Shown piece after piece: positions 1,195 through 45,099 of a stretch of 64,000 bases of DNA. Source of the DNA: Vampirovibrionales bacterium. Lineage in GTDB: Bacteria; Cyanobacteriota; Vampirovibrionia; Vampirovibrionales; Vampirovibrionaceae. Position numbers and translations under genes: made by a program. Location of the stretch: NCBI GenBank assembly GCA_029262635.1, contig JAJCZA010000024.1, positions 62,001 to 126,000 of the forward strand, written 5' to 3'. Under the pieces are notes generated by a model that saw only the letters and a list, made by a program, of their open reading frames with translations, did not search any database and was not told the DNA's origin. Numbering within the stretch: the stretch's first letter is position 1; each line of letters begins with the position of its first letter.

Positions 1195-1497
1195 ATGATA
1201 ACGCCGATACATTCTCCACAGTTTGGTTCAAGCGCTTCAAGCCCGTCTAATATTTCAAGTGATCAGCTGTTGAACTTTTATCAGAGGCAGGGAATTGTTC
1301 CTCCTACTAATAAACGCAATGCACCAGTGGTTACTTTACATGATTCGAGGTTGGGAACGCCTGTTAAAATTCCCACTCATGAGAAACAAGTACCCAATAA
1401 ACTCTTGAAAGACCATGCCAGAGCGCTTGGTATGACGATCAATGATTTTAAGCGAATTCTTGCGAACAAGCATTCCCGCTTTTCATTAGAGGGCTAA
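1195..1497 (+). CDS. Small protein with N-terminal Phe-Gly motif
   Basis: I do not recognise this 100-residue protein. It begins MITPIHSPQFGSS, with Phe10-Gly11, the same N-terminal style seen in at least nine other loci of this window. The middle (about 20-65) is Ser/Pro/Lys-rich and probably disordered. The C-terminal 40 residues (LLKDHARALGMTINDFKRIL) look like a short helical domain. No signal peptide, membrane segment or cysteine is visible. It lies between the LysM gene and the MFS gene, on the same strand as both. Confidence 0.6.
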   Translation: MITPIHSPQFGSSASSPSNISSDQLLNFYQRQGIVPPTNKRNAPVVTLHDSRLGTPVKIPTHEKQVPNKLLKDHARALGMTINDFKRILANKHSRFSLEG

Positions 1498-23619: not shown

Positions 23620-23821
23620 TAATAAAAAATCCTGAAAATTACGAAGTTGGGAAAGCGTATTGTGTGATTATACGATAAGCGCAAGGCGAAGCCGATTATT
23701 TATTAGATGAAGCCGATTATTTTTTATACTAAAATAAAAAACCGGACAAAACTTTTTTGTTACCGACTTTATTCAACTATAAATTATTGATTGCATGCTC
23801 TTCAGTCTAAGGAACTTAAAA

Positions 23822-24118
23822 ATGCCTTCTCTTTCAACCCATTTTCCACCTCAGTTTGGCGCAGTGCTTGTCTCTTCTAAAAATGCAAAATCCTTAAAAG
23901 AGCCGTCACACGCTGCGTATATCTATCAAGGTCTACTCCATGGACATGTGTATCAGTTTGGTTTTCCTCAGGAAGAGGATACTTTCATGCAACTTTTAAA
24001 TGAGAAGGAAGTTCCCTTTGAAATAATTTCGGATGAAAAATTGAAGCTTTGTGCCTCGACGCTATTTCTTCATAAAGCAAAACTGTTTTTTAAAGCGTTA
24101 GAAAACTTAAAGGATTGA
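23822..24118 (+). CDS. Small Phe-Gly protein with one FGAV unit
   Basis: A 98-residue protein from ATG 23822, which has AAGGAA seven bases upstream; the frame is open back to 23795. It starts MPSLSTHFPPQFGAVLV (F12-G13). One unit of about 65 residues runs from QFGAV through a hydrophobic strand and EEDTFMQLLNEKEVPF to IISDEKL. The same unit occurs twice in the next gene, 3 bases downstream, so the two form an operon of related proteins. No known family, Cys pair or membrane segment is seen. Confidence 0.6.
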   Translation: MPSLSTHFPPQFGAVLVSSKNAKSLKEPSHAAYIYQGLLHGHVYQFGFPQEEDTFMQLLNEKEVPFEIISDEKLKLCASTLFLHKAKLFFKALENLKD

Positions 24119-24121
24119 CCC

Positions 24122-24619
24122 ATGTATTCTCTCTCTCATCAACCCCACTTCGGCGCGGTGCATATCCCCAACTCACAAGCGATACTCGAACTCCCGGCGA
24201 CAGGAAGTGCCGTAGAGGCCGTTGTTTACAAAAGTTTTGATAAAGGTCGCCTCGTTTTGGGGATGTCGCGAAACGATGAGGATGCTTTTGTCAGAACTCT
24301 AAGGAGCAAAAGAATCCAGCATGAAAGAATTCCGGATTCCGAGTTGCAATTCCGTCCTGCCCGGACTTCAGTAGAAAAATTTAGAGCCCAAAAACAACCC
24401 CAATTTGGTGCGGTGTTTGTCGCTAACGACCAAATTAAAAAACTTGAATCGGCTCCTTTTAGTGGCGAGGTAGCAAATGCTAACCGGTTTGAGAATTTGT
24501 CCCCAGGGACGGTTTTCCAGTTTACCAACGGTGCTGAAGACCGCTTTACGCAGACATTAAAGTCTCAAGGCATTCAACACACCGTGATTGCCGATACAGA
24601 TTTAAAGCCCCGTTCTTAA
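24122..24619 (+). CDS. Phe-Gly protein with two FGAV units
   Basis: A 165-residue protein: MYSLSHQPHFGAVHI opens unit 1 (about 9-80), and KQPQFGAVFVANDQ opens unit 2 (about 96-165). Both units have the order FGAV, a variable stretch, a hydrophobic strand, DEDAFVRTL / AEDRFTQTL, (R/G)IQH and IPDSEL / IADTDL. It therefore arose by internal duplication of the domain in the preceding gene. Predicted soluble; no catalytic residues stand out. It ends just before a shared terminator with the convergent glycosyltransferase. Confidence 0.6.
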   Translation: MYSLSHQPHFGAVHIPNSQAILELPATGSAVEAVVYKSFDKGRLVLGMSRNDEDAFVRTLRSKRIQHERIPDSELQFRPARTSVEKFRAQKQPQFGAVFVANDQIKKLESAPFSGEVANANRFENLSPGTVFQFTNGAEDRFTQTLKSQGIQHTVIADTDLKPRS

Positions 24620-31139: not shown

Positions 31140-31622
31140 TCAGGCTAGGTAATTCAGGGTGGGGCTTGCATTGTGATGAGCGTTAGCGATAATCACAGAG
31201 GCTAAAATAACCTTACCTCGTGGATCGTTGGCGCTATCGTTTGGATTGCCGTAACGGCTTAACGCCGATGACGCTTCGGGGCTTATATCAGAGCCCTCGG
31301 GTAAATCCATTAGAAAAAGAGTTTCTTGAGAGCCGTCAATGCCGCTGCCCTCTTCTTTGCCATCACTAATCTGCTGAGGAAAGGCGTTGGCCGCGTCAAT
31401 GCCGCTGAGCATCGATGACAAACTTCCTAGCTGAGGACCTGCTCCTGAGGATGTTGGGTCTAATTCGCGAAACATACCATTAACGTTAAACTGGTTATCC
31501 TGACGATCCCAACGTCGTTGTGCGGCTTTCTGTTCTGCTGGTTTTTCCGCAGAGAGGCTGGCGTCTGCAGAGTTACCTTGAGAAAGGGGGGACAAGCCAA
31601 ATTGTGGGGGAATGGATGACAT
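31140..31622 (-). CDS. Phe-Gly protein, unknown function
   Basis: A 160-residue protein that opens MSSIPPQFGLSPLSQGNS (F8-G9). The rest is Ser/Asn/Asp/Gly-rich with few hydrophobic clusters until a short C-terminal stretch GKVILASVIIANAHHNA (about 136-152), which may be an amphipathic helix. No Cys, no signal peptide. It lies between the polysaccharide operon and the lipoprotein gene and appears to be its own unit. I do not recognise a family. Confidence 0.55.
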   Translation of the reverse strand: MSSIPPQFGLSPLSQGNSADASLSAEKPAEQKAAQRRWDRQDNQFNVNGMFRELDPTSSGAGPQLGSLSSMLSGIDAANAFPQQISDGKEEGSGIDGSQETLFLMDLPEGSDISPEASSALSRYGNPNDSANDPRGKVILASVIIANAHHNASPTLNYLA

Positions 31623-33384: not shown

Positions 33385-33640
33385 CGAACAAAGAACCTCC
33401 AGTGTGTTTGTGTTTTTGAATGCATCAATTTGTACCAAGGCTGATATTGTAGTCCAAAGAAAAAGGAAAGGATACGATATGGGATTTTCTCAGTCGGACT
33501 ACTTCGAAAATGAGTCAGAGGGAAAAACATTAATTCATCCTTAAAAGAAGTCGGTAAAATGCGTTGATGCCAGTATAATAAACAAGAAGCATGGGTTGGC
33601 GCCTGCTTTTTGTGAAAATGGTTTGTTGTTAGGAACACCC

Positions 33641-34648
33641 ATGAGCGTTCAGTACAAAGATTACTATAAGATTTTAGGGGTGGATCGAAACGCCACGGCT
33701 AAGGACGTTAAATCTGCCTTTCGAAAGCTGGCCCGGAAATATCATCCGGATGCCAGTACCGGGAACGAGGAAAAATTCAAGGAACTGAACGAAGCGTATG
33801 AGGTGTTAGGCGACGAAGGTAAGCGGAAACTCTATGATAACTTGGGTGCCGACTATCGTCATGGTGCTAATTTTGAACCCCCTCCTGGCTTCGATGGTTT
33901 TTCCGGGTTTGGCGGGATGGGTCAGGGCGGTTATTCCCAACATATTAATTTAAATGATCTGGGTGGTATGGGCGGAGACGGTTTTTCCGACTTTTTTGAT
34001 CTGCTTTTTGGGCAAATGGGTGGAATGGACCAAGGTGCTTATGCCGGTGGATTTTCTGGTAGGGGTAACGGCGGTTCCGGAGGAGGTGCGCATGCCTATG
34101 CTCATGCGGGCACCCGACGACAGGCATCGCCACAAAAGCCTAAAAACCTGAATATTGAGAAGCCGGTATCTTTAACCCTAAACGAAGTCGCCGCCGGTGT
34201 GGAGAAACAGATTCAATTGGGACGAGGTGGCCGAAAAGTCACGGTAAAAATTCCGAAAGGGGTTAAACCCGGTGCTAAAATTCGCCTTAGTGGTGAAGGA
34301 AAGCACTTGGCCAGCGGTCAAAGTGGCGACTTATTGCTTATTGTCCGTTACGAAAAACATCCTGACTTCACCCTTGATGGACAAAACCTATTATACGAAG
34401 CTTATGTTCCGGTGCCGGACCTAGTATTAGGCGGGGAAATAAGAATTCCGACACTGGAAAAATCCGTTAGCCTGACCCTGCCCAAAGGGACCCAAACTGG
34501 TATTCTAATGCGGCTTAAAGGATTAGGGCTTCCAGGTAAAGGGAAAGATCAGGGTGATATTCGAGTTCGAATCCGGGCAAAAATCCCGGAAAACCTAACG
34601 CCTGAAGAAACTAAACTGTATGAAGCATTGAAAAAACACCAAAGATAA
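33641..34648 (+). CDS. DnaJ-type co-chaperone without zinc finger (CbpA-like)
   Basis: From ATG 33641 (AGGAA five bases upstream) the protein is 335 residues. It has a J-domain (about 1-70: [19 protein letters not shown] then KYHPDAS with the HPD motif), a Gly/Phe-rich region (about 75-165) and two C-terminal beta-domains. There is no CxxCxGxG zinc finger, so it is class II, like CbpA. It should stimulate DnaK ATPase and hold unfolded clients. No dnaK or grpE is adjacent. Confidence 0.92.
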
Positions 34649-34745: not shown

Positions 34746-34912
34746 GCCAGCACAGCTGGCTTTATTTAGGGCTGGATTCGTAAACACCACCATCCTTCAT
34801 GTCATTCCCGCGAGGGCGGGAATCCAGGCCCTACCAGCACAGTTGGCTTTACTTAGGGGCGGGTTGCGTGAATCATTTAGTTCCTGTCATTCCCGCGAAG
34901 GCGAGAATCTAG
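34746..34912. repeat. Two tandem ~80-bp units with REP-like palindrome
   Basis: Unit 1 (34746-34827) and unit 2 (34832-34912) share the same order. Each has a hairpin (GCCAGC-ACA-GCTGGC; ACCAGC-ACA-GTTGGC), then TTTAYTTAGGG, a variable stretch, and GTCATTCCCGCGA(G/A)GGCG ending GAATCYAG. The last part (34801-34827; 34886-34912) is a CATTCCCGC palindrome of the REP type known from many bacteria. Nothing here codes for protein. A further copy of the hairpin part lies at 41116. Confidence 0.75.
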
Positions 34913-34964: not shown

Positions 34965-34993
34965 TTGTAGCAGTTCTGTTAGTATGGTAGTAT
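34965..34993 (+). promoter_or_regulatory. Promoter-like element of array gene 1
   Basis: TTGTAG (34965-34970), 17 bases, TAGTAT (34988-34993), 50 bases before the ATG at 35044. The -35 is weak, but spacing and the TAGTAT box match those of the next three paralogues. Confidence 0.5.
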
Positions 34994-35043: not shown

Positions 35044-35838
35044 ATGTCGTTTCCCGTTTCACCTTCGTTGAAGCCCCATTTACAATCCGTTTCAGTCCAG
35101 CCGTCTGTTTACTTTGGCCATAAAACGCCTCCGAAAGAAAATGATCAGGTCATTTTCGTCGAAGAGACGCATGATCCCGATATCAGGGATAAAATGGTAA
35201 AGGCTAAAGGCGATTTTATGAAAGGAGTGGGGGCTCTATCCCTGATAGCTCCGATCCCGGCGGTTATTCTGGGAGCGGCCTCTCTCTTTAATCCGCTCGT
35301 GGTTATCGGCCTAACGGTGGCAACGGTTGCTGGGGGTAGTTTCTTACTCTACCGGGCATTCACCAAAAAGTTTCGGGAAGCGAAGACGGAATCGACTGAA
35401 CGGATTGCGTTGCAGCCAAAAGCTCAACAGCTTCGTATGGAAAAAGCAACAGGGCAATCGTTGGATGGCTTGTTGGTTAACGCTCAAGGGCTGAATCAAG
35501 TGGTTGTTCTTTATCTATCTTTGGGAGAAACGACTGTCGGCGATGCAAAAATGTTTGATTTGAAAAAGAGGCTGAGCGATTTAGGAGAGAAGTACGGTAC
35601 AGGTGTTCGATTTATCCAATACCATTTAGACCAACCAGGTAAAGACCCTGCGTTTAAGCTTCCACCGGTCGACGGGCCGGCTTCGGATTATCCTTGTTTG
35701 GCTGTTCTGAATCATCAAGGAAATTGCGTCTTCAGCGAGACAGGCATGTTGAAGATGACTACAGATGAACTCGTCCAGCAAATCGCTCCAGTTTTATTGG
35801 ATACGCCTTTATTAATAGAGTCAGATGATCACGCTTAA
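35044..35838 (+). CDS. Array protein 1: Phe-Gly leader, two TM helices, CXXC-less thioredoxin-like domain
   Basis: A 264-residue protein, first of four tandem paralogues. The leader MSFPVSPSLKPHLQSV ends at VYFG (F24-G25). Two hydrophobic segments (about 61-80, 85-103) form a hairpin. A charged helix follows (105-135). The C-terminal domain (about 140-255) has a central strand VVVLYLS, then TTVGDA, VRFIQYHLDQPG and DYPCLAVLNHQGN. That order resembles a thioredoxin fold (YPCL at the cis-Pro place) but has no CXXC, so a redox role is unlikely. AAGGAGTTTTC precedes the start. Function unknown. Confidence 0.6.
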   Translation: MSFPVSPSLKPHLQSVSVQPSVYFGHKTPPKENDQVIFVEETHDPDIRDKMVKAKGDFMKGVGALSLIAPIPAVILGAASLFNPLVVIGLTVATVAGGSFLLYRAFTKKFREAKTESTERIALQPKAQQLRMEKATGQSLDGLLVNAQGLNQVVVLYLSLGETTVGDAKMFDLKKRLSDLGEKYGTGVRFIQYHLDQPGKDPAFKLPPVDGPASDYPCLAVLNHQGNCVFSETGMLKMTTDELVQQIAPVLLDTPLLIESDDHA

Positions 35839-35874
35839 TTCATAGCGTTAACTCTCTGAGTTTGCCAATCTGTC

Positions 35875-35903
35875 TTGATACTTAATTATTATTGTAATAG
35901 TAT
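35875..35903 (+). promoter_or_regulatory. Promoter-like element of array gene 2
   Basis: TTGATA (35875-35880), 17 bases, TAGTAT (35898-35903), 56 bases before the ATG at 35960. Confidence 0.6.
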
Positions 35904-35959
35904 TTTGTAGGTTCAATTCTCTCGTCAACTCAATCAGGATCACAAGGAGTTTTCATCTT

Positions 35960-36757
35960 ATGTCATTTTCCATTGCGCCTTTATCACCGTTTGGTTCACC
36001 ATCTAAAGTCCAAATGCCCATTCATTTTGGAAATAGAGAACCTAAAAAGGGGTTTTCTTTTCTTCCTGAAATAAAAAATATTGATGAAAAACATCTGAAA
36101 ACAGATTCGATGGCGTTTAAAGAGGCTCGCCTAGAAGGTGGATTGACTATTCTTCGTTTATTGACACTTTCTTGGGCAGGGGGTTCAGCGTTTTCCCTCT
36201 TGGAGGTTCCGATGGGCGGTCTAATGGCTCTTGTTGGCGCCGGGCTGGCAGGAATAAAGCTTTGGAACAGAGATGTAAAGACGATTGAGGAACGGGCGAT
36301 AGTTCGAGACAAGAAAGCCGAGGCGCTTCAGTCTCAGATAGAACGGGCGAAAGTCGGCACGCTTGATGACATGCTGGCGGACGCTAAAGCCAAAAAGCAG
36401 CCCGTGGTTCTTTACTTTCCGCACCAATCGGATAATGCGGGTGATGCGTTGCTCCATGATGTGAGATTGATGGTGAATGAACTGCTGACAGTAACGACGG
36501 GAAATTCAAACCCTTCAAAAGTTCGGTTCATCCGGTATGATTTGGCCCAAGCGGGTTCGCCTGATTTTGATATTCCGCCCATCAACCTAAAACCAACAAA
36601 CTACCCTTGTCTGATGGTTTTGGACGGAGATGGTAATACGGTACTTCAGGAAATAGGCATTCTAGGAAGAAACGGCATTTGGGAAGCGGAGCCCGAAGAT
36701 CTCGCCAAGGACATCGAACGTGCTTTGGAAAAGGCGAATGAAAACGAAAAAGCCTAA
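35960..36757 (+). CDS. Array protein 2: Phe-Gly leader, membrane hairpin, thioredoxin-like domain
   Basis: A 265-residue paralogue of the preceding gene and the closest relative of the next. The leader has two Phe-Gly pairs (F11-G12 and F23-G24, in PIHFGNRE). A hydrophobic hairpin spans about 60-101. A basic helix (DVKTIEERAIVRDKKAEALQ) follows. The C-terminal domain (about 133-260) carries PVVLYFP, DNAGDALLHDV, VRFIRYDLAQAGS and YPCLMVLDGDGN. No CXXC. The ribosome-binding site AAGGAGTTTTCATC is nearly the same as that of gene 1. It has its own promoter, so it appears monocistronic. Confidence 0.6.
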   Translation: MSFSIAPLSPFGSPSKVQMPIHFGNREPKKGFSFLPEIKNIDEKHLKTDSMAFKEARLEGGLTILRLLTLSWAGGSAFSLLEVPMGGLMALVGAGLAGIKLWNRDVKTIEERAIVRDKKAEALQSQIERAKVGTLDDMLADAKAKKQPVVLYFPHQSDNAGDALLHDVRLMVNELLTVTTGNSNPSKVRFIRYDLAQAGSPDFDIPPINLKPTNYPCLMVLDGDGNTVLQEIGILGRNGIWEAEPEDLAKDIERALEKANENEKA

Positions 36758-36763
36758 AATTTA

Positions 36764-36792
36764 TTGACATTGAATTGTTATGCGAATAGCAT
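36764..36792 (+). promoter_or_regulatory. Promoter of array gene 3
   Basis: Perfect -35 TTGACA (36764-36769), 17 bases, TAGCAT (36787-36792), 63 bases before the ATG at 36856. The -35 box begins 6 bases after the stop codon of array gene 2. Confidence 0.65.
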
Positions 36793-36855
36793 TAGTTGGA
36801 TCCATTTGATTGGTGTCATGTATTCGCTCATTAGTTTGGAGGGGTTTTTATCATC

Positions 36856-37653
36856 ATGTCGTTTCCAATCGTGCCTTTGCAACCGTTTGTTTCGTCAGGC
36901 CCAGCTCAATCGCCCATTCGTTTTGGAAACACCCCGCCTGAAAAAAAGGATCCACTCTCTTTTCTTACGGTTAAAACCGTTGAAAAAAAGCATCTAGACT
37001 CGGATTCTATGGTACAGAAAGAGACGAAATGGGCTGACGGGATATCTGGTATAAGTCTTATCACCCTTTTTTCAGGGGGAAGCATGCTTGCAATATTCTT
37101 GGAAAGTCACCTTATTCTATTAATGACTTTGGCTGCGAGTGTGTTGCTTGCGTTGAATATTAAGGGCAGAGATGTAAAAGCCATTGAGGAGCGGGCGGAA
37201 GTTCGAGAGCAGAAAGCTGATGCGCTCCGGCCTCAAATCGAATATGCGACATCCAGTACGTTAGATAACATGCTGGCGGAAGCCAAGGCTAAAAAACTGC
37301 CGGTGGTTCTTTACTTTCCTTTGCAGAGGAATAATGCCGGTGAAGCTTTGCTGCATGATGTCAGGGGAAAACTAATAACAACGGGTCCTATGAACATTCC
37401 AAACATTCGGTTTATCCGGTATAACCTTCTCCAACCCGGCTCGCCTGAATTCAGTATTCCGCCCACCAACCTAAAACCAGAAAGCTACCCTTGTCTGATG
37501 GTTTTGGACGGAGATGGCAATACGGTATTAAAAGAAGTGGGGATTCTAAACAGAAATTCCATTTTGAAGGGTTCTTTTGAGCCAAAACCCGAAGATCTGG
37601 CTAAAGACATCCATTCAGCTTTGAATCCAACCGTCTCAAACGACAAAACTTAG
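36856..37653 (+). CDS. Array protein 3: Phe-Gly leader, membrane hairpin, thioredoxin-like domain
   Basis: A 265-residue paralogue, very close to array protein 2: both have the DVK(T/A)IEERA helix, LD(D/N)MLA(D/E)AKAKK and YPCLMVLDGDGNTVL. The leader is MSFPIVPLQPFVSS then PIRFGNTP (F23-G24). Hydrophobic segments lie at about 64-80 and 84-96. In the domain the usual DNAGDA is NNAGEA. It has an extra KGSFEPKP loop near the C-terminus. GGAGGGG lies 11 bases before the ATG. No catalytic residues are evident; the fold assignment is by eye. Confidence 0.6.
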   Translation: MSFPIVPLQPFVSSGPAQSPIRFGNTPPEKKDPLSFLTVKTVEKKHLDSDSMVQKETKWADGISGISLITLFSGGSMLAIFLESHLILLMTLAASVLLALNIKGRDVKAIEERAEVREQKADALRPQIEYATSSTLDNMLAEAKAKKLPVVLYFPLQRNNAGEALLHDVRGKLITTGPMNIPNIRFIRYNLLQPGSPEFSIPPTNLKPESYPCLMVLDGDGNTVLKEVGILNRNSILKGSFEPKPEDLAKDIHSALNPTVSNDKT

Positions 37654-37666
37654 TTTAGGGAAAATC

Positions 37667-37695
37667 TTGCTATTTGCTTGTTATTTTTGTAGCAT
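37667..37695 (+). promoter_or_regulatory. Promoter of array gene 4
   Basis: TTGCTA (37667-37672), 17 bases, TAGCAT (37690-37695), 62 bases before the ATG at 37758. Confidence 0.6.
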
Positions 37696-37757
37696 GCTGC
37701 TTTATCTGGATACCCTAAAGTTCCACTACAAAATAAGAAGGGGTTTTTGTTTTTATT

Positions 37758-38534
37758 ATGTCGTTTTCTATTATACCTGCAGCATTTTCATCTTCACGGA
37801 TCCCTAAAAAGCCTTATTTCAAGGCTGCTTCTGTTCAGCGGTCGGTTTACTTTGGTGAAGAACCCAATCGAAAGCTTTCCAAAAAAGAAATCGGACGGAT
37901 CATAGGGGAAGCTTTTCAGCACGATTCTATCGTTAGAAAAGAAATGAAATTTCTGAGCATTGCTAATGTATGTATTCCTTTTGCTGGTTTGGTTGGGGCC
38001 TTTTATGCTTTAGGTTTGGCGGGACTATTGAATCAACTCACAATTCCCTTGTCGGGAGGTGGTGCCTATATGCTTTTTAAGATGCTTCAGCACGAAAGCA
38101 CGCAAAATGTGGCGGATAGAGCGCTTGTGCGAGAGTCGAAAGCCGAACAGCTTCAACCCCAAATGGACTATGTAACGCCTGAGTCGCTGGATGGCTTGCT
38201 AGCAAAAGCGGAAACCAACCAGGAAATGGTGTTTCTTTATTTGCCGAAGGGGCAGGATAACGCTGGCGATGCCCGGATGTATGACTTATTCAGCGATATA
38301 GAAACCCTAGCCACAAAGCAAAAGACCAAGGTTCGCTTTATTCGGTACGATCTTGGACAAAAAGGCCATCAACCGGCATTTAACCTTCCTCCAACTGATC
38401 TTCCTGCTTCGGAGTATCCCTGTCTTGCTGTTTTGGATAAAAAAGGGCGTGTGGCATTAGAAGCAGAGGGGTTGCTGAATTGGACACCTGAAAAGCTTTT
38501 AAACACAATTTATCCGGTTTTTGCTAGGAGTTAA
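37758..38534 (+). CDS. Array protein 4: Phe-Gly leader, membrane hairpin, thioredoxin-like domain
   Basis: A 258-residue paralogue, more like array protein 1 than 2 or 3. The leader is longer (MSFSIIPAAFSSSRIPKK), with SVYFGEE at F32-G33. A hydrophobic hairpin spans about 72-112. The C-terminal domain has MVFLYLPKG, DNAGDARMYDL, KVRFIRYDLGQKG and SEYPCLAVLDKKG, without CXXC. The ribosome-binding site is AGAAGGGG about 17 bases upstream. It is convergent with the next gene, 8 bases away, and ends the array. Confidence 0.6.
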   Translation: MSFSIIPAAFSSSRIPKKPYFKAASVQRSVYFGEEPNRKLSKKEIGRIIGEAFQHDSIVRKEMKFLSIANVCIPFAGLVGAFYALGLAGLLNQLTIPLSGGGAYMLFKMLQHESTQNVADRALVRESKAEQLQPQMDYVTPESLDGLLAKAETNQEMVFLYLPKGQDNAGDARMYDLFSDIETLATKQKTKVRFIRYDLGQKGHQPAFNLPPTDLPASEYPCLAVLDKKGRVALEAEGLLNWTPEKLLNTIYPVFARS

Positions 38535-38542
38535 CGGTCTAA

Positions 38543-39301
38543 TTAAGCCCTTAGGCCCATATCCGGCTTATTGGTACGCTGAAAATTGGCTTCTTTCACC
38601 AGCGAATCGACCGCGCCAAAGAGTTCTGGATTTTCTAATTCCGGTTTACGCAGTTTGGTCGTTTTTCCGCCATGGCGAATGGTCACATTGCTTTCGCCCG
38701 CAAATTGGGTGATTTCAACTTTTAGGTTCTGGGTTTTATCCGTAATCTGCATCACCGAACCGGATCCGAATGTGGGGTAGAGTAGTGAGGGTCTAATAAA
38801 GCTATAGGAGCTTTCCACGTGAGGATCGTGCAGGCTCAGTTTTTGGGTGAGCTGTTTGACTAACGGCGCAAAAGCACTAAAACTAGAGCTGACAGAGTCG
38901 TAGACTTTTCGGAAAAGCTTGGGGAGTGTTTGAACCGTCAACGGAGTCGAGTCGTTAACGGTTTCTGGTAGAACCATGCTGGTGCCATCCAGAATTCGAG
39001 GCGATTTTCCAGAGGTGGTGAGTTCCGCTTGCCAATTAATCAGTCGGTTGGGGATGCCTTGTCCATCTGCCGTCGGATGTTCGCCGGTTAATTTAAGCTG
39101 AATCCCGTTTTGCGAAGCCTGAAACTCATCCTGATATCGCCCGGCTTTCTTTTTAGAGTGGCGTTGCCAGTGGAGGTTTCCGTCAATGGTTTCATTCAAA
39201 AAGCTTTGGAGGGTCTGGCTAATGCTTATTTTGGGCTTGGAGATAACAGGAGGTGTTATATTCAGGCCAGCGGGATTGATTTGAAGGGGGGTTATGCTCA
39301 T
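38543..39301 (-). CDS. Hypothetical protein, 252 residues
   Basis: From ATG 39301 (GAGAGAG upstream) the protein begins MSITPLQINPAGLNITPP, the same kind of Pro/Ile-rich leader as the array proteins but without a clear Phe-Gly pair. The body is polar and beta-rich (GIQLKLTGEH, QNLKVEITQF, SNVTIRHGGKTT), with one Phe-Gly (YPTFGSG) in the middle. No signal peptide, membrane helix or Cys. The frame extends 27 codons upstream to 39382, but those residues look random. Function unknown. Confidence 0.55.
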   Translation of the reverse strand: MSITPLQINPAGLNITPPVISKPKISISQTLQSFLNETIDGNLHWQRHSKKKAGRYQDEFQASQNGIQLKLTGEHPTADGQGIPNRLINWQAELTTSGKSPRILDGTSMVLPETVNDSTPLTVQTLPKLFRKVYDSVSSSFSAFAPLVKQLTQKLSLHDPHVESSYSFIRPSLLYPTFGSGSVMQITDKTQNLKVEITQFAGESNVTIRHGGKTTKLRKPELENPELFGAVDSLVKEANFQRTNKPDMGLRA

Positions 39302-39636
39302 AGCATCCAACTCTCTCTCTGTATTAAACAGTTTTTTAAGTCGTCTTATTTTGTGACTAAATGTTAAGCAAAGCGATCTCACAAGTCAATCGGATTGGGG
39401 CGTTATGTCCTCCAAATGGGTGAGGCCTTTTTATTTAAAGCGCACTTTTTTCTTTATTATCTTCGTATAGTAATATTTTTTGTAAAAAATAGGCGGCCTG
39501 AGGGTTTGTTTGTTATATGCTTAGTAAGCGTAGAAAAATCAGGCTATGTCCCTGACTTTCGGGTGTACATACAAATTATTCGATATTTAAAAGAAAAATA
39601 AGAAGGAAACTAGGGTTTCCGGATTGGGCTAACATT

Positions 39637-40803
39637 TTGACGGTACCTACGTCGGGTATGGGTTTATTCACCCCTGCCTTGATTAAGCTGGAAAAAAATC
39701 CTTTGGCGCAAACCATTGTCAAGGATATTTTCGGCTTTAATGTGCCCAAAATATTAGCCACGCGCACGCCGGAAGAGCGGATGGATGTGGCGACCCTGGA
39801 ATTATCCAACACAGCGATCACCCTGGGTGCGTCGCTGACTTTACCTTTCCTCGTTCGGTATCCGGTTCACTGGTTATCGAAGGTTAAGCTCAGTGAGCTT
39901 TCAGGAGAGGTTGTCCAGCAAGCGGCCCCTCAAGTCAAGTTAGCCCGACTTGGGGCCGCTCTGGGCTTTTTATTTCCTTTTGCCTCGGCGTTTTGGTCAG
40001 CGGCGTTTTTTAGAAATTACATTACGGCCAAACGAACTAATACCGCTAATTTTGAAAAAATTATCGGCCTTGAAAACGGCGGGTATGAGAAGACCCCTGA
40101 AGACTCACTGCAGGAAGAGCTGGATTATCAATTGGGCATGACGAAAAAGGTCTTGTTGACTGGGATGGGGCTCGGTTTGGCTTCGCTTTTCGGTTTTTCG
40201 ATTGCTGCTCGAGAAATGGCCAAAAAGGTTGCTGAGAAAGGGGTAAAGTCTTTATCAAAGCGTATGGAATGGTTTTTTGAGCATTTTCAACTGGAAGGCA
40301 AAAATGCCAATCAGGTCAACCATGGATTGGCGACTTTTGTGTTTTGGCTGGCGCCGGCGTATCTGGGTTGGCTTCATGCGGCTCGGGGTGATAACGAATG
40401 GAAGGAGCAAGCTCTCAAAGCGGCAAACGCGACTCTTTGGTTTTCCCTATTCACGCCATTTGGTTTAAATCCCTTGCTTAAAAAATATTTTAGAAAATGG
40501 GTGGTTCCAACCCGTCAGAATGAAAGTAGAATTCCCCTTTATAAGGAGCTTTTAACGGACTCCCGATATAAGAGGGTTAGAGCTCAGCTTTTAAAACTGA
40601 AAGACAAGCAATTTGGGGCAGGGCTTTTGGTGACCATTCTTATGCTGGGTTTGACGCCTCAGTTGCTAAACATCTATTTGACGAAGCGCCGCCATGAGCG
40701 GGATATGGCGGCTCAAAAAGAAAACGCATTGCGATTTCGAGCTGAAGCTCCTCAGGGCGGTTTAGTAATTCGACCTGATTCGCCGTTTCAAGTGTTTATG
40801 TAA
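39637..40803 (+). CDS. Conserved-looking polytopic membrane protein of unknown function
   Basis: A 388-residue protein with about five or six hydrophobic segments (roughly 55-75, 105-128, 171-190, 228-247, 260-278, 326-348) separated by long charged loops. It opens SGMGLFTPALIKLEKNPLAQ, then IFGFNVPKILATRTPEERMD. The segment PEERMDVATLELSNTA looks like a conserved cytoplasmic motif. No transporter signature is evident. The start is TTG 39637 or ATG 39658; neither has a strong ribosome-binding site. A clear terminator follows 55 bases after the stop. Confidence 0.6.
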   Translation: MTVPTSGMGLFTPALIKLEKNPLAQTIVKDIFGFNVPKILATRTPEERMDVATLELSNTAITLGASLTLPFLVRYPVHWLSKVKLSELSGEVVQQAAPQVKLARLGAALGFLFPFASAFWSAAFFRNYITAKRTNTANFEKIIGLENGGYEKTPEDSLQEELDYQLGMTKKVLLTGMGLGLASLFGFSIAAREMAKKVAEKGVKSLSKRMEWFFEHFQLEGKNANQVNHGLATFVFWLAPAYLGWLHAARGDNEWKEQALKAANATLWFSLFTPFGLNPLLKKYFRKWVVPTRQNESRIPLYKELLTDSRYKRVRAQLLKLKDKQFGAGLLVTILMLGLTPQLLNIYLTKRRHERDMAAQKENALRFRAEAPQGGLVIRPDSPFQVFM

Positions 40804-42824: not shown

Positions 42825-43212
42825 AGAATATGAACTCCTTTCTCTACTCTTATCTTCTCTTTTTCTCTTCTCTCTACGTTATAAATTATATTTTTTACAT
42901 GCGAACGCATGAAACTCGACAACTCAAAACAAACTTAATAAAATAAAAACACTTGATCCGGTAAAAGTGATCGCTCGCTCTAAAAGCAAAATAGATTTTC
43001 CCCTTAAAATGCTTTGGCAAAGGTGTTTTAGAAGATGTGAAGAAATCTTGCTTTATCAGATCAATCGATCGAAAAATCCCGAAACCTCAACCCACTTTTC
43101 TATTTCAGAGGCCCCCATTTACCAAACGTTAGGATAGCTTGTTTAGGTCGAAGATCTCCGATACCATCATGAAAAAATGTAGCTAAGCCGTTATCGATTG
43201 AGAGCAGAGTTA
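42825..43212. other. Divergent intergenic region upstream of mutL
   Basis: About 390 bases. The left half is pyrimidine- and AT-rich and must hold the promoter of the Gly-rich gene. GCGAACGCATG and similar short palindromes occur near 42901. I see no ORF, RNA gene or terminator I can support. Confidence 0.35.
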
Positions 43213-45099
43213 ATGACAGGTCCCCATCCTTCCTCTTCACGTACTTCGCGGGTGCATGTTCTTCCACCGCATATCGTCAACCGGATTGCGGCTGGAGAAG
43301 TGGTCGAGCGTCCGGCTTCGGTTGTGAAAGAGTTGGTGGAAAACTCCTTAGATGCTGGGGCTCGGCGTATCGATATTACTGCTTCCGCCGGTGGGAGAAC
43401 CATTCGCATTGCCGATGATGGCTCAGGAATGCCTCCGGATGACGCTCAACTGGCGTTTCATAATCACGCTACAAGCAAAATTACTGACGAGTCTGACCTG
43501 GCGTATATTGAAACCCTGGGTTTTCGAGGAGAAGCGCTGGCCAGTATCGCTGCGATTTCCCGTTTATCTTGTGAAACGAGAACGGCGGAAGCAGACGTTG
43601 GAAGTCGGATTACGGTTGATATGGAAGGAAATCCAACCATTACGGCCATCGGATGCGCACCGGGTACGATTATTGAGATGAAAGATTTATTTTATAACAC
43701 GCCAGCCCGACTCAAATTTATGAAAAAACCCGCGACGGAACTGAGCCATATTGAAGAAATGGTTCAGCACCTGGCCTTGTCCCACCCGGGTGTTCAATTT
43801 ACACTCACGCTTCAGGATAAAACCGTCTTGAAAACGTCTGGGGTGGGTGATTTTAAAATGACCATGGACGAGGTGTTTAAACTAAAAGACGATTTAAACC
43901 ACTTTATTCCGGTCTGTCTGGCTGATGATGAGTTTGGCTTTAAACTGACCGGGCTAGTTTCCACGCCGGACATGATTAAAAGTTCTCGCCGATGGATGAT
44001 CACGTTTGTTAATGGTCGGCGAATTAAATGTTCCACACTAAATAAGGCGGTTGAGTCCGCTTATGATTCGCTTGTACCCCATGGGCGTTATCCTTTTAGT
44101 GTGATTTTCCTAACTTTACCTTCTGAACAGGTGGATGTTAATGTTCACCCCACCAAGCGAGAAGTCCGTTATACTTCGGGAAATCAGGTGTTTAGCTTTG
44201 TTAAAAGTGCCGTTAAAAATGCTTTAGAAGCAAATGGTCACCGAGTTGCCTTTCGGCCGGAGTCTTTAAACGAGGCTCTCTTATCGTCTTCGCAACCATT
44301 TGACGGGCTCCCTTCTCTCGGATTTTCTCGTGGAATAGGCCGCTCACTTGATTCGCCGGGTCGTGATGGAGGTATTACACGTGTTCCCCCAGTATCTATA
44401 GGGCCAGTGGATACGCAGGAGGCGATGTCTTTTTATCAACCAGCGGATAATGTGACAGAAGTAACGAATGAGCGACTAGCCCAAACGGAACTGGCTTTGG
44501 ACGGGTCGTCTCGAAAAACACTGAAAGTTATTGGCCAGTTGTTCAACACGTATATCTTGCTGGAATCGCCACAAGGGTTAATGGTGGTGGATCAGCATAT
44601 TGCCAGTGAGCGCACGTTTTTTGAAGCTCTCATGCGCAATATACAGGTGGAAGACCCGGAAACACAAACCCGATTAACATCAACCCCCATTCCATTTTCA
44701 CCGGTTCAGGCCGAGCTATTAGAATCCAATCGGGATGCTTTCACTAAAATGGGCTTTACTTACCATATGAAGGATTCATCCGCTACCCTGACGGCGGTTC
44801 CACTAATTTACGCTGAAAAAGAACATCCCGATCGTTTGTTTGAAAACCTGGTTTGCCAATTGGAGGAAACCGGTGAAATGAAACTGGATTTGGATTTGAT
44901 GATTGCAACGATGGCCTGCCACAGTGCGGTAAGAGCGGGAGACATATTGAATCAACAGACCATGGAATCCATTATTGAGCAATGGCTGGCTTGTCAACTG
45001 CCTTGGACCTGTCCCCATGGCCGTCCCATTGCCCATACCATTAAAACGGATGATCTGAACAAATTTTTTCACCGTCCCAGCTTACCGGTTAATATCTAA
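43213..45099 (+). CDS. mutL: DNA mismatch repair protein MutL, endonuclease type
   Basis: A 628-residue GHKL ATPase. HIVNRIAAGEVVERPASVVK, ELVENSLDAG and the ATP-lid residues in GFRGEALASI are canonical. The C-terminal domain carries the nuclease motif DQH-IAS-ER-TFF-E (about 460-471; the usual Ala after DQH is Ile) plus ACHSAVRAGD and CPHGRP (about 600-605). So it should nick the daughter strand itself, as in bacteria without MutH. The start is ATG 43213; a TTG at 43198 would add 5 residues. No mutS is in the window. Confidence 0.95.
   Translation: MTGPHPSSSRTSRVHVLPPHIVNRIAAGEVVERPASVVKELVENSLDAGARRIDITASAGGRTIRIADDGSGMPPDDAQLAFHNHATSKITDESDLAYIETLGFRGEALASIAAISRLSCETRTAEADVGSRITVDMEGNPTITAIGCAPGTIIEMKDLFYNTPARLKFMKKPATELSHIEEMVQHLALSHPGVQFTLTLQDKTVLKTSGVGDFKMTMDEVFKLKDDLNHFIPVCLADDEFGFKLTGLVSTPDMIKSSRRWMITFVNGRRIKCSTLNKAVESAYDSLVPHGRYPFSVIFLTLPSEQVDVNVHPTKREVRYTSGNQVFSFVKSAVKNALEANGHRVAFRPESLNEALLSSSQPFDGLPSLGFSRGIGRSLDSPGRDGGITRVPPVSIGPVDTQEAMSFYQPADNVTEVTNERLAQTELALDGSSRKTLKVIGQLFNTYILLESPQGLMVVDQHIASERTFFEALMRNIQVEDPETQTRLTSTPIPFSPVQAELLESNRDAFTKMGFTYHMKDSSATLTAVPLIYAEKEHPDRLFENLVCQLEETGEMKLDLDLMIATMACHSAVRAGDILNQQTMESIIEQWLACQLPWTCPHGRPIAHTIKTDDLNKFFHRPSLPVNI

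Follow-up and report, generated by a model that had tools for sequence, protein, structure and literature searches.

What would a bacterium do with four consecutive copies of a membrane-anchored, thioredoxin-like protein from which the catalytic CXXC has been lost? The question is raised by positions 35044-38534 of a 64,000-nt stretch of DNA (hereafter the window; G000:C24:62001-126000) from the 2.99-Mb genome of a Vampirovibrionales bacterium related to Vampirovibrio, which feeds on algae. An earlier note, made from the letters of the window, had described a tandem array of four genes of 258-265 codons at this place, and we indeed found four uninterrupted ATG open reading frames (ORFs) of such lengths, arranged head to tail on the forward strand (Table 1). 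Their C-terminal domain is predicted to adopt a thioredoxin fold. The best explanation that we can offer, held tentatively and somewhat short of an even chance, is that the proteins are membrane-tethered, cytosol-facing, non-oxidoreductase binding or holdase modules. Three observations are new in this analysis: each copy has its own promoter-like site, the array is a lineage-specific insertion, and the leader of its proteins is not specific to the array.

A thioredoxin-like domain without CXXC

A full-length alignment of the four paralogues contained 46 invariant columns. Pairwise identity was 32-57% overall and 35-67% in the C-terminal domain (C-domain), the leader and hydrophobic region diverging faster. 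Genes 2 and 3 form the closest pair (57% overall, 67% in the C-domain), as the earlier note had stated, followed by genes 1 and 4 (42% and 46%). The motif blocks that it had listed (a Phe-Gly leader, AGDA, RFIRY and YPCL) are likewise present, with VGDA and RFIQY in gene 1 and AGEA in gene 3. Because the ratio of nonsynonymous to synonymous divergence (dN/dS) between genes 2 and 3 is ~0.38 at a dS of ~0.93, these two are constrained coding genes; for the other gene pairs, synonymous sites are near saturation. No fifth copy was found in the rest of the genome.

The fold was examined with two AlphaFold models, one of gene 4 (AlphaFold2, from the four-sequence alignment) and one of the gene 2 C-domain alone. 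Both displayed, at moderate confidence, the thioredoxin-like order β-α-β-α-β-β-β-α. In the gene 4 model the elements are E137-139, H141-153, E157-162, H168-187, E192-197, E222-226, E232-236 and H244-257 (E, strand; H, helix), with a predicted local distance difference test score (pLDDT) of ~65-88 by block and ~80 for the domain. When this model was searched against the PDB with Foldseek, the top matches were mostly thioredoxins (prob 1.00, target-normalised TM ~0.6, E at least 3.5e-3), and the gene 2 C-domain model matched AGR3, AGR2, thioredoxins, ERp44 and TMX2 (prob 0.8-0.98), TMX2 being among the matches of both models. When the family was aligned by hhalign to 16 relatives of the thioredoxin and thioredoxin_7 kinds, taken from this bacterium's own class, the score was 37.3 (Prob 87.4); none of 40 column shuffles exceeded 17.6, and the reversed alignment scored 13.8. 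A narrower, five-sequence target scored 24.4, also above the controls. The agreement of both models, Foldseek and hhalign supports the thioredoxin fold that had been proposed for the C-domain. A non-thioredoxin fold and a known Pfam family covering this domain, either of which had been named beforehand as grounds for rejection, were looked for and neither was found. Pfam gave no family match for the array proteins and no thioredoxin match even at E 10, and NCBIfam and PDB sequence searches gave no match.

In the hhalign alignment, both cysteines of CXXC land on the first and last residues of [AV]G[DE]A, which all four proteins carry where catalytic thioredoxins (PF00085 and PF13899) have CXXC, and the thioredoxin cis-Pro, which stands before strand 4, aligns to the Pro of YPC, a match of position with a putative cis bond. 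Hence the CXXC is lost and the cis-Pro region is kept, as had been claimed from the letters. The loss of both cysteines leaves no ordinary dithiol exchange or oxidoreductase action; thiol chemistry of a non-CXXC kind may be possible through the invariant Cys that directly follows the cis-Pro (cis-Pro+1), a position without Cys in all 16 thioredoxin relatives aligned. Thioredoxins grip polypeptides via their cis-Pro loop and the surrounding active-site surface. Because this loop is among the best-conserved parts of the array proteins, binding of clients or partners would be their best-supported role.

The previously described two-helix hairpin, which with the thioredoxin domain would make up a TMX-type combination of membrane anchor and thioredoxin domain, was borne out only in part. 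Genes 1 and 3 have two strong hydropathy windows and a clear hairpin, and genes 2 and 4 have one strong window and a weaker second segment, in a region over which model confidence is low. A K/R-rich stretch follows the hydrophobic region in genes 1-3, and a hydrophobic hairpin that leaves the C-domain facing the cytosol is likely.

Put together, each protein would begin with a Pro-rich tail that closes on P-x-x-FG; a hydrophobic hairpin, both ends of which are probably cytosolic, comes next, then a charged helix and finally the thioredoxin-like domain. The domain retains the cis-proline face that thioredoxins use for gripping polypeptides. Its most likely role would be that of a holdase or scaffold which binds polypeptides, whether clients or partners, on the cytosolic side of the inner membrane, and its cis-Pro+1 Cys may form mixed disulfides with clients, as a Cys outside the CXXC site does in E. 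coli CnoX. The four copies would go back to successive duplications of one unit, promoter plus gene, and would have been kept by purifying selection as their specificity diverged.

Several points weigh against this proposal. The proteins have no known chaperone domain: the C-terminal TPR domain that characterizes CnoX was not found in the Pfam search, and the thioredoxin domain is the last part of each protein. The models are of moderate confidence (mean pLDDT 64 and 67) and all Foldseek E-values exceed 0.001. In genes 2 and 4 the second hydrophobic helix is weak, and a protein that crossed the membrane only once would have its C-domain on the opposite side. The proximity of the gene for the co-chaperone CbpA is explained by the insertion described below and does not count as a sign of a shared pathway.

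Among the alternatives, the one that survives best, unlikely as we judge it, is a thiol-dependent protein, redox-active by another route, in which the cis-Pro+1 Cys does the work as a monothiol, in mixed-disulfide protection or in glutathione or persulfide chemistry. This residue, the sole conserved Cys, is invariant in all four paralogues despite the divergence of their C-domains. There is also a precedent in E. coli CnoX (EcCnoX), whose thioredoxin domain carries SXXC and has no oxidoreductase activity, and in which mixed disulfides are made by a Cys lying outside SXXC (PMC6282202). However, cis-Pro+1 begins a core strand, so that its Cys may be structural, and no second Cys is conserved.

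A Phe-Gly leader common to unrelated proteins

The Phe-Gly leader is present in all four array proteins (YFG, HFG, RFG and YFG, in gene order), as the earlier note had observed, but it proved not to be a mark of the array, being common to unrelated proteins. In a 1.06-Mb sample of the source genome, the pattern P-x(0-3)-[QRHYKT]-F-G was found within the first 45 residues of 37 of 1055 ORFs (~3.5%), against 6.5 expected from shuffled N-termini; ORF starts were chosen mechanically, and some of these N-termini are wrong. The next 45 residues contained it in 10 of 906 ORFs. In a 400-kb hold-out that had not been seen beforehand, it occurred 9 times against 2.65 expected (p 0.0017). In an enumeration of all short motifs, P.FG and V.FG ranked with those most enriched at N-termini in the source genome, and so did P.FG in G001, which belongs to another genus of the family. 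Among the bearers of the leader are HD_4, PhzF, FtsH-like AAA/M41, adenosine deaminase, M17 aminopeptidase and trypsin-like protease proteins, and several tandem pairs of small paralogues. A leader common to the whole class was unsupported, no enrichment being seen in three further families of the class in samples of 100 kb, and a literature search for such an N-terminal motif in Melainabacteria found nothing.

These counts bear on a second alternative, distinctly unlikely, in which a common receptor recognises the P-x-FG leader as a tag for sorting or docking, and the array proteins belong to this pathway as membrane components. Tagged enzymes might, for example, be delivered towards algal prey by a type IV secretion system, a route proposed for the hydrolases of Vampirovibrio chlorellavorus (PMC4451040). 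The excess of matches in sample and hold-out and the variety of unrelated enzymes in the tagged set favour such a tag, but its receptor is hypothetical, membrane-anchored tagged proteins such as the FtsH-like and array proteins are unlikely cargo, and the pattern was partly composed after the data had been seen. A related conjecture, doubtful in our view, is that roughly this pattern, within the first 45 residues, constitutes an undescribed short linear N-terminal tag that recruits about a hundred unrelated Vampirovibrionaceae proteins, comprising enzymes, orphan tandem paralogues and membrane proteins, to a common receptor or compartment, the array supplying its membrane-bound, thioredoxin-fold members. 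For the binding modules that we prefer, docking to a shared partner through the leader is speculation. If the leader is a tag, it would point to a route of sorting or docking not known so far in the non-photosynthetic relatives of Cyanobacteria, and four ready test proteins for the idea are at hand in the array.

Similar N-termini were seen elsewhere. The window contains small orphan ORFs that start with P-x-FG and are otherwise unrelated to the array, at 1195-1497 (+), 23795-24118 (+), 24122-24619 (+) and 31140-31622 (-), those at 23795 and 24122 being tandem paralogues. Small tandem genes with this leader recur in G001 (L293, 11906-12607 and 12658-13284, both -), where two paralogue-like products have the N-termini TPYFGKVAPVA. 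Downstream of MutL in G002, a relative in the same family, Vampirovibrionaceae, three tandem paralogue-like genes of ~375-383 aa (L033, 8767-12263, +) have the leader PRFSA, as if FS stood instead of FG. The P-x-FG-tagged M17 aminopeptidase of the source genome (G000:C5:437290-439329) has an untagged paralogue at C2:288748; the two homologues closest to it, from G008 and G005, carry short extensions at the N-terminus containing SFAGK and QFTGK, in which the replacement of FG by FAG or FTG is suggestive only. An orphan membrane protein to the right of the array (39658-40803, +; no Pfam match) starts with 'NPLxQxIVxDIxGxxxP', resembling by eye L247 10092-11507, which is P-x-FG tagged, and L279 3506-5026.

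The duplicated unit and its site of insertion

Alignment of the upstream regions revealed a sigma70-like site ahead of each gene, consisting of TTGnnn, 17 bases and TAG[CT]AT. The -10 is followed by a Shine-Dalgarno region of the AAGG(A/G)GTTTT- or GGAGGGGTTTT-type and then by ATGTC(G/A)TTT. The spacing pattern TTG-N20-TAGYAT occurs exactly four times in the window, each time at an array gene (0.78 expected; 0 of 100 shuffles reached four), and the refined TTG-N9-TRTTA-N6-TAGYAT exactly four times in the whole 3.0-Mb genome, again all at the array; as the motif was derived from these four sites, it is the exclusivity and not the presence that is informative. Promoter activity itself we only infer, since a generic promoter scan of the array region returned 9 sites against 7.3 expected, with no excess. 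The same promoter-like site at every copy indicates that the duplicated unit was promoter plus gene, and each copy can probably be transcribed independently. A wider regulon was rejected, one-mismatch matches elsewhere being no commoner than those of a reversed control.

Table 1. Positions in the window of the array genes, their parts and promoter-like sites, and the neighbouring genes.
Feature	Position	Strand	Detail
Paralogue 1	35044..35838	+	264 aa ORF
Paralogue 2	35960..36757	+	265 aa ORF
Paralogue 3	36856..37653	+	265 aa ORF
Paralogue 4	37758..38534	+	258 aa ORF
Gene 1 promoter-like site	34965..34993	+	TTGTAG-17-TAGTAT
Gene 2 promoter-like site	35875..35903	+	TTGATA-17-TAGTAT
Gene 3 promoter-like site	36764..36792	+	TTGACA-17-TAGCAT
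Gene 4 promoter-like site	37667..37695	+	TTGCTA-17-TAGCAT
Gene 1 Pro-rich leader	35044..35118	+	ends in PSVYFG
Gene 2 leader	35960..36031	+	ends in PIHFG
Gene 3 leader	36856..36927	+	ends in PIRFG
Gene 4 leader	37758..37856	+	ends in RSVYFG; without the Pro of the strict pattern
Gene 1 thioredoxin-like C-domain	35434..35838	+	VGDA at CXXC position 35536-35547; YPC 35689-35697
Gene 2 thioredoxin-like C-domain	36341..36757	+	AGDA 36437-36448; YPC 36602-36610
Gene 3 thioredoxin-like C-domain	37237..37653	+	AGEA 37336-37347; YPC 37486-37494
Gene 4 thioredoxin-like C-domain	38166..38534	+	AGDA 38262-38273; YPC 38415-38423
CbpA/DnaJ-type co-chaperone	33596..34648	+	conserved left neighbour of the insertion
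Orphan protein	38543..39382	-	homologue between CbpA and MutL in G002, where the array is absent
MutL	43198..45099	+	conserved right neighbour

The array lies between the genes for CbpA and MutL. In the g5 genomes, MutL follows CbpA directly or with one small gene between, and G002 has CbpA, one convergent gene homologous to the orphan at 38543-39382 and then MutL. In the source genome this interval contains the array plus three or four more orphan genes. Given that CbpA and MutL are adjacent or nearly so in relatives, the array is a lineage-specific insertion. Its gain in the source lineage is the simplest reading, with loss elsewhere as the alternative, the host's genus being represented by one genome in this comparison. 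A functional link to CbpA was rejected: relatives have the CbpA-MutL neighbours without the array, and proximity is thus no evidence. Profile searches found no array homologue in 97 relatives, a GTDB contig scan, viral contigs, plasmids or phages, in keeping with the lineage-specific character suggested by the earlier note; a single match in G004 (E 0.3) was judged to be chance. An origin as a defence system or from a phage was unsupported, PADLOC and PHROGs giving no meaningful match. Two copies of a palindromic repeat, CATTCCCGCGA[AG]GGCG[AG]GAATC, were noted at 34803 and 34888, between CbpA and gene 1; two more occur in 1 Mb of the source genome and none in 0.88 Mb of relatives.

The weakest alternative, improbable to our minds, is an orphan family of this lineage that has drifted since its duplication, selection maintaining little besides membrane localisation, which would fit the lack of homologues in the genomes and databases searched and the faster divergence of hydrophobic region and leader, but is at odds with four intact ORFs, a dN/dS well below 1 and conserved -35, -10 and Shine-Dalgarno sequences.

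Comparison with known systems

Within the source genome, proteins of the families Thioredoxin_7 (PF13899) and Thioredoxin (PF00085) are like the array proteins in topology, in the cis-Pro and in a helix-strand lead-in similar to 'ALxxQKxxxxPxxLYF'; several are membrane-anchored. The array proteins differ from them in having [AV]G[DE]A for CXXC, a Cys after the cis-Pro, no Pfam match, and a hairpin where theirs is a single anchor. Human TMX2, which has an altered active site, tethers a thioredoxin domain to the membrane, as the array proteins probably do, but with another topology and in another compartment, and no sequence homology to the array was detected. The top Foldseek matches of the gene 2 C-domain, AGR2 and AGR3, are atypical thioredoxin-fold proteins of the secretory pathway with a single active-site Cys; unlike the array proteins, they have no membrane anchor. 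The chaperedoxin CnoX (YbbN) of E. coli shares with the array a thioredoxin domain devoid of oxidoreductase function and one Cys outside the CXXC site, whereas it carries a TPR domain and the array proteins a probable membrane anchor. Holdase activity and transfer to GroEL/DnaK are further marks of the CnoX chaperedoxins. Redox-dead thioredoxin folds are known singly, as in CnoX and the b' domains of PDI. What is unusual here is a four-gene array of membrane-tethered, redox-dead thioredoxin folds with their own promoter-like sites and no homologue in our searches, in which a single bacterial lineage has turned a catalytic fold into what is probably a binding module.

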